46,656 bases of DNA from an uncultured Eubacterium sp. (lineage in GTDB: Bacteria > Bacillota > Clostridia > Lachnospirales > Lachnospiraceae), in contig CANDMV010000010.1 of the NCBI GenBank assembly GCA_947385875.1, positions 1 through 46,656 of the forward strand, written 5' to 3'. The notes beneath the pieces are model-generated. The model did not search any database and was not told where the DNA came from. It worked only from the letters and a program-made list of their open reading frames with translations. Positions within the stretch are counted from its first letter, which is position 1; every line of letters starts with the position of its first letter. Shown piece after piece: positions 26,439 to 31,164 of the stretch. A program made the translations under genes and the position numbers.

Positions 26439-26633
26439 GGCGTGTTCGAAAAATTATTCTCGCGATCTGCACTCCTCATTTTGCGGAGAATTTATCCCGG
26501 ATTCTCCATATCATGCTCCATGGGTACAAAGTACGAAGCATATGATTTGTACATGTTCTAATATATTTTACTATTTATGGAAACAAATATTCTCAGATGC
26601 ATATGCTAATAGCAAGAGCAGAAGGGTATTTGA
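26439..26633 (+). promoter_or_regulatory. sleC upstream region with sporulation-type -10 candidate
   Basis: CATATGCTA (26600-26608) fits the sigma-E/sigma-K type -10 pattern CATAnnnTA, with AAACA (26581-26585) about 15 bases upstream, near a sigma-K-like -35. This would place the start about 20 bp before the gene. Such short motifs occur by chance in AT-rich DNA, so this is tentative. Upstream (26440-26570) is a partly palindromic stretch containing GTACAAAGTAC. Confidence 0.4.
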
Positions 26634-27520
26634 GTGTTTATGAAAAGTATATTTCAGACGCAGGCAGACACGCCTGATATGGGCAGGCTTCAGATGAGTG
26701 TAGAATCCAGAGTGAACAGGGAGCCGATTCCAGATGCCAGAATTTCTATTTCATATACGGGAGAACCGGAAAGTACATTTGAAGAATTGAGTACGAATGA
26801 GTCTGGACAGACGGAGCAGTTAGAGCTGCAGGCACCGCCGATCGACTACAGCATGGAACCGTCCGAGGGCCAGCCATATGCGCAGTATACGATACAGATT
26901 GCAGCTGAAGGCTATCAGCCTGTGACGGTTACAGGTATTCAGGTACTGCCGGATGTGACTGCTGTACAGGATGTACGGCTGCAGCCAGTCGGCTCGGCAG
27001 CAGCATGGCCGGATGATATTGTGATTCCTGCGAATACACTGTTTGGAGATTTCCCGCCGAAGATCGAAGAGGCGGAAATAAAACCTGTCCGCCAGACGGG
27101 TGAGATTGTACTTAGCAGGGTTGTCGTACCGGAATATGTCGTAGTACATGACGGAGCTCCGACAGACCAGACAGCCACAGATTACTATATCCGATATAAG
27201 GATTATATTAAAAATGTTGCATCCAGTGAAATCTATGCGACATGGCCAGATGCTACAATTCGTGCAAATGTATTGGCGATTATGTCATTTACGATGAATC
27301 GCGTATATACTGAATGGTATCGGAATAAAGGCTACAACTTTACGATCACGTCTTCGACAGCATATGACCAAAAGTGGTCATACGGCAGAAATATTTTTTC
27401 GAATATATCATTGATTGTAGATGAAATGTTCCAGAATTATCTGTCAAGACCAAATGTGAGCCAGCCGATTCTAACGCAGTACTGTGACGGACAGCGGGTA
27501 TCGTGTCCGAATTGGATGAC
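26634..27520 (+). CDS. sleC: Spore cortex-lytic enzyme SleC, 5' part (gene split by an element)
   Basis: This part encodes residues 1-296 of a SleC-type spore cortex hydrolase, which clostridia keep as a zymogen in the spore and which Csp proteases activate at germination. The first 130 residues are the propeptide-like beta domain (RLQMSVESRVNREPIPDARI, then QPYAQYTIQIAAEGYQPVTV). VVVHDGAPTDQTATDYYI leads to the SpoIID-like lytic domain with KDYIKNVASSEIYATWP, where E199 is the predicted catalytic residue, and then NVLAIMSFTMNRVYTEWYRN. The frame runs through CPNWMT and hits a TAA at 27522, where foreign sequence begins. The missing C-terminus is found intact at 30778-31164. The start is GTG at 26634 (AGAAGGG upstream), with ATG 26640 as an alternative. 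Confidence 0.93.
27514..27520 (+). other. attL core (left junction of the sleC element)
   Basis: GGATGAC occurs here and again at 30776-30782. Left of it is sleC sequence, and right of it is element sequence starting CTAACTGCGATAGCGTATGC. Recombination between the two copies restores sleC in frame. The arm GCGATAGCGTATGC (27527-27540) is the partner of the arm next to the right core. Confidence 0.88.
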
Positions 27521-27596
27521 CTAACTGCGATAGCGTATGCAGTTAGGAGGATGGAGCATTAGCATATATAGAAGAAAACGGAGGGAGTGATATACT

Positions 27597-27848
27597 TTGC
27601 AGTCTGCCGCTGTAAAATTAAATAGTCTTTTAGAAAATTTGGAAGAAGAAGATTATAATAAGGCTGTTTCATATATTGAGCTTTTAGTAAGCAGAAGAAA
27701 GGAACAAAGATCCGACAGAAAATCAGAAGAGGGTGATACAGATATTGAAGCGATTGTAGCTTCCTTGACGGGCGCTATTCCCGATTCAGGGAAATCCTTG
27801 GCAGAATACAGAAGTGAAAGGCTGAAGAAATATGAAAATTCTTATTGA
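27597..27848 (+). CDS. Antitoxin partner of a PIN-domain toxin
   Basis: An 83-residue, highly charged protein starting at TTG 27597 after GGAGGG. It begins QSAAVKLNSLLENLEEEDYN with KAVSYIELLVSRRKEQ, a helical N-terminus. The C-terminal part, including GAIPDSGKSLAEYRSERLKK, is probably the disordered toxin-binding tail. Its last 17 bases overlap the start of the PIN gene, the classic antitoxin-toxin arrangement. It is the first gene inside the element, immediately after attL. I recognise it by context and general composition rather than by a diagnostic motif. Confidence 0.75.
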   Translation: MQSAAVKLNSLLENLEEEDYNKAVSYIELLVSRRKEQRSDRKSEEGDTDIEAIVASLTGAIPDSGKSLAEYRSERLKKYENSY

Positions 27849-28242
27849 TACAAATGTTATTCTAGATGTTCTTTTAAAAAGAGAACCTTTTTACCGTGAT
27901 GGCGCAAAGGTGCTGAATTTATCAATGAGAAATGATATCAATCTATTTGTATCGGCATCTGCAATTACTGATATTTATTATATTGCTAATCAAATGCTGA
28001 GAAATAAGATGGAAATAAAAAATCTTTTGTCAAAGCTGCTGCAGGTAGTTTCAGTAGCCAGTGTTACAGAAGCTATGATTAAAAATGCGCTTGAGCTTCC
28101 ATGGAAAGATTTTGAAGATTCTGTACAGTACTCGGTTGCATTATTGCAGGAAATGGAAGGGATAGTGACACGCAATCCTGAGGATTACAAAGAAGCAGTA
28201 ATAAGTATATGGACACCGGAAGAATTGTTGTTCTATGCGTAA
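27832..28242 (+). CDS. PIN-domain toxin (VapC-like ribonuclease)
   Basis: A 136-residue PIN-domain protein. MKILIDTNVILDVLLKRE carries the first catalytic Asp (D6), ITDIYYIA contributes further acidic residues, and the C-terminal FEDSVQYSVAL has the late Asp typical of the metal-binding site. Such toxins cleave RNA, often tRNA, when the labile antitoxin is lost. The start ATG overlaps the antitoxin gene by 17 bases. In this element the pair would kill or arrest cells that lose the element during growth, while a mother cell, which dies anyway, would not be penalised. That last point is inference. Confidence 0.85.
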   Translation: MKILIDTNVILDVLLKREPFYRDGAKVLNLSMRNDINLFVSASAITDIYYIANQMLRNKMEIKNLLSKLLQVVSVASVTEAMIKNALELPWKDFEDSVQYSVALLQEMEGIVTRNPEDYKEAVISIWTPEELLFYA

Positions 28243-28286
28243 AGATTTAGAGAATTAAATCATGTTATTATTTCATTCAAGAAGAG

Positions 28287-28562
28287 GGAGTGTTAGAAAT
28301 TCTGCGTAAGTTTACCGTATAATCACATAAATCACAATGTCATGATGCTGGGGTCAAAAGGTCATCAGATGAAAAATTGTATTAATTGTTTGCAAATTGC
28401 GTGATTTTTAATTGCGTTTAAATATGCATATAACATTGTAAATCAGACTCAATTCTAATTCAATTAACACAATTTGAGCCTTCCATACCTTTTGAACCCA
28501 ACATCATGACATTTCCTATATCAGGCATTATATGAATACTTATAAGAAAATTCTGACACTCC
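28287..28562. repeat. MITE-like inverted repeat within the element
   Basis: The ends GGAGTGTTAGAA (28287-28298) and its complement TTCTGACACTCC (28551-28562) match except one base. Deeper in, AATGTCATGATG followed by TGGGGTCAAAAGGT pairs with an inverted copy near 28480-28515. The arms together extend about 90 bp each, leaving a small centre. No transposase is encoded, so it is a non-autonomous element or the two ends of a deleted insertion sequence. The family is not certain. Confidence 0.7.
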
Positions 28563-28573
28563 TTTGTATTTTG

Positions 28574-28705
28574 AGGGACTTTATACTTGAAAGAAGATCA
28601 TCGCCATATGATTCGGCTTATCATACTCTTGAATTTACAAGGGGCTTTTTACTTGAAAGAAGATCATCACCATATGATTCGGCTTGTCATACACAATGTG
28701 ATGAA
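28574..28705. repeat. 66-bp tandem duplication at the recombinase 3' end
   Basis: ACTTGAAAGAAGATCATC and CATATGATTCGGCTT occur at 28585 and again at 28651, offset by 66 bp with few differences. The second copy is the 3' end of the recombinase gene. The first, just past its stop, encodes the same tail (YDKPNHMAMIFFQV on the minus strand). It records a tandem duplication or the scar of a second recombinase gene. Confidence 0.8.
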
Positions 28706-30137
28706 TAATGCTTTTCATTGCTTCATTCTTGGTTTGTAGATCTATAGCGTCACAGGTTATGAGTTCATAGACGTTTTTGATTTGCTCTTTCATGATCGTC
28801 TGGCATTTTCCATCACATGTGCTGGGAGGCTTTAATGAGGCAATTTGCTGTTGTATCGTGTGCTGTTCCTCGCTAAGAATGCGCTTGTTTTCTTTATATT
28901 CTTCTATTGTATCAATACCATCGCGATATGCCTGCTTTACACGTTCTTCTTTTTTTGACACTTCTAAAAGACGCTGTTTTAATAGTATTGTGTTATCGGT
29001 TTTAATCAAATCTTCGTTTTTTGCAACTTTGAAGCTGATGCGGGATTGTTTGGTTGTATACGCTAAAGCTTCTAAAATTTTAGGTGTCAGTTTTTTTTCG
29101 GATATCTGATGAGAGATGGAGCATTTACCTTTTAAAACGCCATAGCATTGGAAGTTGGTGTAAGTATGCCCATAACGTTTATCTTTGCGTACCGAAACAG
29201 ATAGAGTGCGTCCGCATGTCGAACATTTAACAATTCCTGACAGCCAATGTCTGCATGTAAAAGATGGGCGCTGTTTTTTGGGACGGTACTCCGATTCATA
29301 TCTTTTTTTTGCTGCTTCAAACTGATGTTCGGAAATAATTGCTTCATGATGCCCATCAGCAATAATCCATTCAGCAGTTTTTTTGAGAGAATTATTTTCG
29401 TTATCACGCTGATTCCAGACCGTTTTACCGATATAGGTCTGGTTATGCAGAATATAGTCGATGCCGCGCCGCTCAAAAGGTTTTTTGTGTGAAGTCTGAT
29501 ATCCATGTGCATTTAGATATTTCGCAATATCAAACATACCCATGCCCTCTTCTGTGTATAAATTGAAGATCAGCTGAACTATTTTAGCTTCATCAGGAAC
29601 GATAACAGGCCCTTCTTTGTGATGAAGTATTTGGTAGCCAAGCGGCGGCCTGGCCTGGTAATTTCCCCTCATGGCGTTTTCTGTCATACCGCGGACAACT
29701 TCGCCAGAGAGACGGATGGAATAATATTCATCCATCCATTCAATGATACGTTCAATCAGCGAACCGAATGGACCTTCGGCCAATGGCTCGCTGATACTGA
29801 TTACGTCAACATGATCCCGGCGGAGCATAGATTTATACACAATCGATTCTTCCTGATTTCGGGCAAACCGGCTGAATTTCCAGACAAGGATAACATCAAA
29901 AGGATGATCTTTGCTTTTGGCATGGGCTATCATATTCTGAAATTGAGGACGTTTCTTGGCTTTTCGACCGCTGATGCCTTCTTCCATATAGATATATTGT
30001 TCGGATATCAGGATATTATTTTGAGATGCGTATTCCAGAAGTAAACGTTTTTGGGCATCAGGAGAGAGTTCATCCTGTTTTGATGTGCTTACCCGGATGT
30101 AAAGCGCACCAGATCGCATGTTAGATTTTTCTTTCAT
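28635..30137 (-). CDS. Large serine site-specific recombinase
   Basis: A 500-residue recombinase that should catalyse excision and integration of this element. The resolvase domain has ALYIRVSTSKQDELSPDAQK with nucleophile S17, then EEGISGRKAKKRPQFQNMI and ILVWKFSRFARNQEESIVY. The recombinase domain spans about 165-270. It is followed by a zinc ribbon (GIVKCSTCGRTL ... FQCYGVLKGKC) and a long coiled coil (about 375-430), as in SpoIVCA and TnpX relatives. All core motifs are present and there is no frameshift. GAGG precedes the ATG. It points back toward attL, with its 3' end next to a MITE. By analogy with sigK skin systems, it may be expressed in the sporulating mother cell. Confidence 0.95.
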   Translation of the reverse strand: MKEKSNMRSGALYIRVSTSKQDELSPDAQKRLLLEYASQNNILISEQYIYMEEGISGRKAKKRPQFQNMIAHAKSKDHPFDVILVWKFSRFARNQEESIVYKSMLRRDHVDVISISEPLAEGPFGSLIERIIEWMDEYYSIRLSGEVVRGMTENAMRGNYQARPPLGYQILHHKEGPVIVPDEAKIVQLIFNLYTEEGMGMFDIAKYLNAHGYQTSHKKPFERRGIDYILHNQTYIGKTVWNQRDNENNSLKKTAEWIIADGHHEAIISEHQFEAAKKRYESEYRPKKQRPSFTCRHWLSGIVKCSTCGRTLSVSVRKDKRYGHTYTNFQCYGVLKGKCSISHQISEKKLTPKILEALAYTTKQSRISFKVAKNEDLIKTDNTILLKQRLLEVSKKEERVKQAYRDGIDTIEEYKENKRILSEEQHTIQQQIASLKPPSTCDGKCQTIMKEQIKNVYELITCDAIDLQTKNEAMKSIIHHIVYDKPNHMVMIFFQVKSPL

Positions 30138-30427
30138 ATAGGAACCTCACATTATGGGGATGATAGGCTGGTTGAAAATGACGCGCTTCCTATTTTTGTG
30201 GCTGCGTTTATATTCATAATATAAAGAATGTTCGTGAAGTATTCTTTCGATTATTTTACTCCGTCCAGCTTATTTATAAGAGCACTCCTTCATAATTTAT
30301 TTCTGTTTATTCTAACATATTTCAAATGTGCAAAAAATATTATTAAAATCAAAGATATAAATGGAATTTAAGAATATTTTTTAGAAATAATTAAGGCTGA
30401 ATTAGATCTAGTGAAAGGAGCTGCTTA
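30138..30427. other. Divergent intergenic region inside the element
   Basis: AT-rich DNA between the recombinase and the small gene. It must hold both promoters. CATAATTTA near 30291 resembles a sporulation -10 box on the plus strand, but chance matches are likely here. No clear sigma-70 promoter was identified. Confidence 0.3.
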
Positions 30428-30613
30428 ATGGACGAGCTGAAATGGGAAGCATACCTTATTAATGGATGTGGAGGAGAAAAAATTAATATTAAGGATTTGA
30501 CAGAGGAACAAAGGAATAGATTAGACCAGCTTTTAAATGAGCAATGTGCAGAATCAGTTGTGATTAAACCGAATGCTTCATCCGGGCAGAAATTAGATTT
30601 TAGCGCTGACTGA
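30428..30613 (+). CDS. Small orphan protein of the sleC element
   Basis: A 61-residue acidic protein with a good start (AAAGGAG seven bases before the ATG). It contains EKINIKDLTEEQRNRLDQLL followed by NEQCAESVVIKPNA. I do not recognise a family and see no membrane segment. It is transcribed away from the recombinase and toward attR. Serine recombinases need a small, poorly conserved directionality factor for excision, and the C. difficile sigK skin element encodes one. This is the only unassigned gene here and therefore the best candidate, by context alone. Confidence 0.6.
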   Translation: MDELKWEAYLINGCGGEKINIKDLTEEQRNRLDQLLNEQCAESVVIKPNASSGQKLDFSAD

Positions 30614-30757
30614 TTCGCGCCAGTGCATGGCAGAATTTTGACGGTGATGTGTGAGTCCGTCGACTAGAAATTTTAACGCAGCAATAGCGTGAATCAGGTC
30701 GTAATAAAATTAATTTTTGCCTGATGGAGCACAAGAACGCTATAAAATAAATAACTA

Positions 30758-30782
30758 CATATGCTATTGCAAAAAGGATGAC
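30758..30782 (+). other. attR: element arm plus core
   Basis: CATATGCTATTGC (30758-30770), AAAAA and the core GGATGAC (30776-30782) precede the resumed sleC sequence GCAGTGGGGATCG. In the circularised element this arm would face GCGATAGCGTATGC from attL. The two arms are complementary at 11 of 13 positions and lie equally far from the central TG of the core. Confidence 0.85.
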
Positions 30783-31164
30783 GCAGTGGGGATCGAAATA
30801 TCTAGGAGATCAAGGCTATTCAGCGATAGAGATCCTGCGTTATTACTATGGAAGCAACATGTACATCAATACAGCCGAAGAAATATCAGGCATACCATCA
30901 TCATGGCCGGGAGTAGTGCTGACGATCGGTTCCTCAGGCAGTAAAGTCCGTCAGATGCAGGAGCAGCTGAATCGTATCGCGCGGGCATATCCTGCATTAC
31001 CGACGATCAGTGCGGATGGTGTATACGGCCCTGGGACACAGGAGGCAGTAGAGAAATTCCAGTCGGTTTTCGGACTGCCGGTTACTGGAGATGTTGATTT
31101 TAGAACATGGTATAAAATATCTGAGATCTATGTAGGGGTTTCACGAATCGCAGAATTGGCGTAG
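30778..31164 (+). CDS. sleC: Spore cortex-lytic enzyme SleC, 3' part
   Basis: This part encodes the last 128 residues of SleC. It resumes exactly where the 5' part stops, with MTQWGSKYLGDQGYSAIEIL and RYYYGSNMYINTAEE. The C-terminal peptidoglycan-binding domain follows: GSSGSKVRQMQEQLNRIA, SADGVYGPGTQEAVEKFQ, then DFRTWYKISEIYV. With the 5' part this makes a protein of about 422 residues, close to the usual SleC length. No plausible ribosome site precedes the ATG at 30778, so this fragment is not expected to be made alone. Without it the enzyme lacks its cortex-binding domain and the end of its lytic domain. The remainder is intact, with no frameshift, as expected for a gene still under selection. 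Confidence 0.93.
   Translation: MTQWGSKYLGDQGYSAIEILRYYYGSNMYINTAEEISGIPSSWPGVVLTIGSSGSKVRQMQEQLNRIARAYPALPTISADGVYGPGTQEAVEKFQSVFGLPVTGDVDFRTWYKISEIYVGVSRIAELA

Follow-up and report, generated by a model that had tools for sequence, protein, structure and literature searches.

A serine recombinase element at a recurrent site in the spore cortex-lytic gene sleC: predicted developmental excision in Lachnospiraceae

Introduction

Elements that interrupt sporulation genes have been described at sigK, spsM, spoVFB, spoVR, gerE and yabG, the interrupted genes named in the available parts of the reports on them (PMC4191935, PMC5025042, PMC5595907, PMC10747680). Here we analyze such an interruption in a SleC-type spore cortex-lytic enzyme gene (sleC) on a stretch of 46,656 nucleotides, hereafter the window, from an uncultured Eubacterium sp. 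of the Lachnospiraceae (assembly GCA_947385875.1, contig CANDMV010000010.1). An element of 3,262 bp carrying a large serine recombinase (LSR) splits the gene and is probably excised from the mother-cell chromosome during sporulation, rejoining an in-frame sleC of 422 codons. The original prediction for this locus, made from the window alone, knew of no developmental excision in sleC; our literature search likewise turned up no publication describing sleC or cotJC as interrupted, although it left subscription literature mostly uncovered and is no proof of priority.

The comparison with the described systems, drawn from the same parts of those reports, reveals shared principles and several differences. 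As for SP-beta in spsM of Bacillus subtilis (SprA, SprB), an LSR element lies in a spore gene between short cores with inverted arms, and its removal rejoins the gene in frame (PMC4191935). The small directionality gene of SP-beta is directly preceded by a mother-cell promoter (PMC4191935), and here a corresponding motif stands before relatives of a 61-aa open reading frame (ORF) of the element, orf61; both sprB and CD1234 of Clostridioides difficile are directionality factors under mother-cell control (PMC4191935, PMC5025042). Unlike SP-beta, the window element targets sleC rather than spsM, carries a toxin-antitoxin-like pair and, at 3.3 kb, looks like a relic. The skin element in sigK of B. 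subtilis and C. difficile is also a recombinase-carrying element in a mother-cell gene, with a constitutive recombinase and a directionality factor under sigma-E/SpoIIID control in C. difficile (PMC5025042), but sigK encodes a regulator and sleC a germination hydrolase. Like gin in gerE of B. cereus (GirC, GirX), the window element is not phage-like and combines an LSR with a directionality factor, in our case a candidate one; gin, however, measures 28.6 kb, has three LSRs and resides in another gene, and it has been moved to amyE of B. subtilis 168 (PMC5595907). Finally, yin in yabG of C. botulinum, vfbin in spoVFB and vrin in spoVR are equally elements in sporulation genes (PMC10747680, PMC4191935), but in other genes, whereas here one LSR clade occupies two spore loci and is represented in 50 of the 397 genomes sampled from the family.

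Results

The SleC-type gene of the window is cut at codon 296 by an insert lying between two copies of GGATGAC:

26634..27521, + strand: sleC N-terminal half, codons 1-296, with a TAA next at 27522-27524
27514..27520, + strand: left copy of the GGATGAC core (attL), with crossover likely in TG
28635..30137, - strand: LSR, 500 aa (PF00239, PF07508, PF13408; phrog_95 integrase, E 6e-110)
30776..30782, + strand: right copy of the GGATGAC core (attR), 3,262 bp from the left copy
30778..31164, + strand: sleC C-terminal half, codons 295-422, including the peptidoglycan-binding domain

Compared with an uninterrupted 422-aa homologue from the same genus, the N half is 90% identical to residues 1-296 and the C half 95% identical to residues 295-422, with no stop or frameshift in either. 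Without the insert, the gene forms 422 in-frame codons reading ..CPNWMTQWGSKYLG.., the same as in four intact congeners (genomes G001, G009, G010 and G012). The break lies in the sequence WMTQWGSKYLGDQGY, where, in our own reading of the family, the SpoIID-like catalytic domain ends. The N half has a SpoIID-like match under the Pfam cut-off, the C half matches PF01471 (61.7 bits), and residues 11-421 of the intact congener homologue match the solved structure PDB 9h68, entitled "Spore cortex-lytic enzyme pre-pro-form", at E 4.7e-134. Judged by this full-length similarity and its peptidoglycan-binding part, the split gene is a SleC-type spore cortex-lytic enzyme. The LSR frame is open over 500 aa, and its Resolvase, Recombinase and zinc-ribbon domains all score above cut-off. 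The original prediction had claimed two lesion-free SleC-type halves around a 3262-bp insert with GGATGAC direct repeats, a 422-codon product of the family sequence upon its removal, and an intact LSR inside; each of these points is confirmed, and the uninterrupted sleC that it proposed to seek in related genomes is found in the four congeners.

The ends of the element carry the following predicted arms:

27526..27539, + strand: right arm of the predicted attP inverted repeat, 12/16 arm positions matching
30758..30771, + strand: left arm of the predicted attP inverted repeat, from the arm comparison

These arms are matched inverted arms of one attP, with agreement at 12 of 16 positions; when the shuffles of 19 genomes are pooled, 0.05% of them score as high. 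Indeed, arms match better within a genome than between genomes (mean 10.9/16 vs 7.9; shuffled, 7.0; window, 12). The locus has three features of sporulation gene-intervening elements: a position inside a SleC-type reading frame, a serine recombinase, and att cores that restore the frame.

Searches with the intact congener protein as query showed sleC to be broken in many genomes. In 20/20 genomes read, belonging to 19 genera and including the window's, the N half breaks off at an identical TGGATG, and the C side starts with GGnTGA in 19/19 genomes read there, again with the window. The bases due to be removed with the element differ among genomes (ATG, CTG, TTG or GTG at C-side codon 295; ACC, ACT or GCC at N-side codon 296). 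The kept N side is constantly W-M; on the kept C side, codon 296 encodes T in 18 of the 19 (AGC, serine, in G260) and is followed by Q-W-G in all 19. The predicted joined product accordingly reads W-M-T-Q-W-G in 18/19 genomes and W-M-S-Q-W-G in G260. An LSR of at least 426 aa lies within or at the edge of the insert in 19 of the 20 site-296 genomes (18 besides the window). Insert length, measured on single stretches in 10 genomes, ranges from 2,416 to 14,577 bp, and among seven reduced inserts (2.4-3.7 kb) the LSR is present in all seven and the candidate directionality factor in five. On the sequences compared, same-base splits in 20 genomes are beyond chance. Given that LSR elements sit at this base of sleC in 19 other genomes, the element is likely removed during the building of the spore.

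Separately, we note that the LSR and sleC lie on opposite strands in seven site-296 genomes, among them the window's, and share a strand in 12. Site-296 elements thus occur in two orientations at one base, which is unexplained for a non-palindromic core.

Selection on a split sleC could be followed in three congeners interrupted near codon 305 (G003, G005 and G007). The left boundary of this site, non-coding DNA included, aligns well among them, indicating that the interruption is ancestral and older than their divergence. The ratios of nonsynonymous to synonymous substitution rates (dN/dS) are 0.018-0.036 for the N half and 0.037-0.067 for the C half, at dS of 0.42-0.83; spoIVA gives 0.013-0.022 in pairs of the same genomes. 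Both halves of the ancestrally split gene are under strong purifying selection. Since such conservation would not otherwise be expected in a long-disrupted gene, the joined product is presumably used. The 305-site LSRs evolve faster (dN/dS about 0.13-0.24).

Other LSR lineages split sleC near codons 232 and 305, and a split near codon 162, in G227 and G321, is also accompanied by LSR frames. In a tree of 44 LSRs, the 296-site, 232-site (adjoining sleC) and 305-site (adjoining the C half) sequences form separate groups; the tree consists of LSRs from fetched loci, with no outside LSRs, and the exclusivity of the groups rests on the survey of LSR relatives in 397 genomes described below. Among the 13 genomes of the genus, sleC is intact in the four mentioned above and split in seven; it is cut by a contig end in G011, and G006 has no sleC match. 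In G004, G005 and G008, the gene is split at both 232 and 305 and hence lies in three pieces (loci L118 + L136, L119 + L134, L120 + L131). At sites other than 296, the split gene lies on a single contig in G004 (an assembly of 6 contigs), G139 (3 contigs) and G354 (1 contig).

The second interruption spans about 66 kb in G004 and 58 kb in G005. Tandem LSR genes form its end in G005 and G008, and in G005 it begins beside what we take to be pyrimidine-synthesis-like genes. A divergent sleC paralogue at G350:C64:51867-55016 is apparently split near residue 230.

Proteins related to the window LSR at E ≤ 1e-60 occupy 59 places in 50 of the 397 family genomes: 20 in sleC-type genes (the 19 site-296 loci and another split sleC-like gene, L194), 33 beside cotJB/cotJC and 6 elsewhere. 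Pieces of cotJB or cotJC occur in the fetched stretch at 33 of the 40 non-site-296 loci, within 400 nt of the LSR in 31 of the 33, and Pfam confirmed one Mn-catalase (cotJC) and two CotJB pieces. The cotJ-side elements may mark a second set of spore genes, these too apparently split. Such an LSR occurs in 25 of 391 genomes in a class-wide draw (the window's included), the others being at most 52% identical to the window LSR. Genes for tail sheath, tape measure, endolysin and primase lie in the site-296 insert of G036, revealing a prophage of the window-LSR clade at the same sleC base. In IMG/VR, relatives of the window LSR are found on 75 contigs, some with LSRs 63-65% identical, one of which also carries a sleC piece 81% identical. 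The window element looks like a reduced relic or descendant of a temperate phage family integrating in the spore genes sleC and cotJC.

In the cotJ loci inspected, the cotJC piece starts near the motif YGGPDGE. LSR loci beside the cotJ operon include L191, L193, L196, L199, L202-L205, L243, L245, L253-L255 and L258-L260.

Two further features bear on how excision might be controlled:

30428..30613, + strand: orf61, 61 aa, candidate recombination directionality factor, a small-protein family member of putative function
26583..26611, + strand: predicted mother-cell-type sleC promoter (AC, 15 nt, CATATGCTAATA), 34 nt upstream of the GTG start

An iterated search from orf61 recovered a small-protein family in 26 fetched loci, at both sleC and cotJ sites. 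Members are present in 11 of the 20 sleC-296 genomes, within the sequence obtained, and on 35 of the 75 IMG/VR contigs with a related LSR, several of these contigs being near-identical. The predicted structure has a mean predicted local distance difference test score (pLDDT) of 79 and a predicted template modeling score (pTM) of 0.49. We infer that orf61 is a recombination directionality factor. The motif GTACA-N9-13-CATAnnnT stands upstream of 13 of the 26 candidate directionality genes (shuffle mean 0.065, maximum 2) and of 19 of the 35 in the viral set. Before sleC, AC-N15-18-CATAnnnT is present in 61 of the 78 loci used (81 in total; shuffle mean 4.3, maximum 11). This -10 type is common to spoIVA, a mother-cell sigma-E gene. 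The -10-like sequence CATAnnnTnTA lies upstream of spoIVA in 11/20 loci (those of 28 in which the start could be set), of sleC in 14/24 (a subset of the 78), of the candidate ORFs in 10/25 and of the 296-site LSRs in 3/18 (one ORF and one LSR were dropped for too little upstream DNA), and of control genes in 8/241. Thus, both sleC and the candidate directionality factor of relatives are preceded by predicted mother-cell-type promoters. The GTACA-N-CATA motif also occurs before other reading frames in such loci (L155:11374, L246:9651).

Discussion

We consider excision in the mother cell, of the skin/SP-beta type, to be the best reading of these comparisons. An orf61-type gene would be switched on from a mother-cell-type promoter, as the motif in relatives indicates, and as a directionality factor would turn the LSR to excision. 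Crossover between the two GGATGAC copies would then release the element as a circle, and the rejoined sleC would be transcribed from its own mother-cell-type promoter, while the forespore chromosome would keep the element, which would hence be inherited. A SpoIVA match is present in 30/30 genomes checked, the window's included, 29 of them above cut-off. The skin-like excision of the original prediction has thereby gained comparative support from the same-base recurrence, the cotJ set, purifying selection and promoters; the joined allele and the circle have not turned up.

We lean, with less assurance, towards a more general view: growing Lachnospiraceae and relatives may routinely carry a broken sleC, at no fewer than three sites and in some species at two at once, as well as a broken cotJC, and phage-derived serine recombinases may excise in the terminal mother cell, so that excision gates germination. 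Several LSR lineages would have converged on one germination gene, and one lineage would serve two spore genes.

A number of results weigh against developmental excision. A joined sleC was not found in the window genome, in which the N half is present once, nor was a joined allele of the window species among the 120 best proteins, nor an exact element-circle junction in IMG/VR. By motif comparison, the window's own orf61 and LSR have no convincing sporulation promoter. Profile and fold comparisons of orf61 with known directionality factors and solved structures gave no significant match, and the YotN chain of SP-beta (9dxd) is not among 40 weak matches of the orf61 profile. The split sleC of G083 is retained with a truncated LSR, in G004 the 232-site LSR is divided between two frames of 432 and 122 aa, and the LSRs at site 305 may be later replacements. 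Of the 12 other genus genomes, 10 were readable at site 296 and none of these has the insert, and selection on the window copy after insertion can therefore be neither measured nor dated. Finally, the window genome also encodes a divergent SleC paralogue, C97, 36% identical.

This paralogue also bears on the leading alternative, unlikely as we judge it: a phage-derived element at a conserved attB in sleC, leaving upon phage-type induction or by chance, while sleC is off and other cortex hydrolases suffice. LSRs of the clade do sit in true prophages, as G036 and the 75 IMG/VR contigs illustrate; the window genome encodes three Hydrolase_2 proteins in addition to C97; and a paralogue is present in 7/7 split vs 1/4 intact genus genomes (the intact one being G010). 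However, at E 1e-6 no paralogue was found in 16 of the 18 site-296-split family genomes outside the genus, which are drafts. The second sleC that the original prediction regarded as damaging to its case exists in the window genome in divergent form. Nor does a dispensable sleC sit easily with both halves of the ancestral split being held at dN/dS of 0.018-0.067, with the LSR being kept by all seven reduced elements, with one LSR clade at two spore loci or with mother-cell-type promoters before the candidate directionality factor in relatives.

Less probable still is a recent, now immobile relic, with sleC dead in this one species and too young for decay. The absence of the site-296 insert from the 10 other genus genomes readable there and the lack of a clear promoter for the window LSR and orf61 would fit such a history, but both genes are open, the att cores and arms are matched, and relatives have the same anatomy at the same site. 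Misassembly, or a mixture of strains behind a draft metagenome, can hardly be the explanation: the window genome is a draft of 282 contigs and many relatives are metagenome-assembled genomes, yet the same-base split recurs in 20 genomes, 10 of them with both halves on one stretch, and other-site splits lie on single contigs in G004, G139 and G354.

If mother-cell excision holds, the genes subject to developmental excision would include one for a germination enzyme and one for the spore coat, across numerous genera of Lachnospiraceae and related bacteria, with several sites and recombinase lineages recruited convergently. The loci then offer dozens of natural replicates for asking why phages pick mother-cell genes and what the host gains. 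A sporulation gene that a genome survey scores as "broken" may still work, and this bears on predicting which bacteria can sporulate and germinate. These loci also provide many combinations of LSR, att site and candidate directionality factor as tools.

Further features of the window

The insert contains two further ORFs between attL and the LSR gene:

27597..27848, + strand: antitoxin-like ORF, 83 aa, overlapping the PIN ORF; no family match above cut-off, putative role from position
27832..28242, + strand: PIN_3-domain protein, 136 aa, toxin-like (PF13470, 81.5 bits)

Together with orf61, this toxin-antitoxin-like pair adds to the original account of the insert. A 27-nt inverted repeat (93% complementary, arms 124 nt apart) lies between the PIN and LSR genes at 28336-28513, and two 53-nt direct repeats (92% identical, 66 nt apart) lie across the 3' end of the LSR gene at 28574-28692. 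At the contig start, positions 77-514 of the window encode a 145-aa recombinase-like ORF (profile E 1.3e-15).

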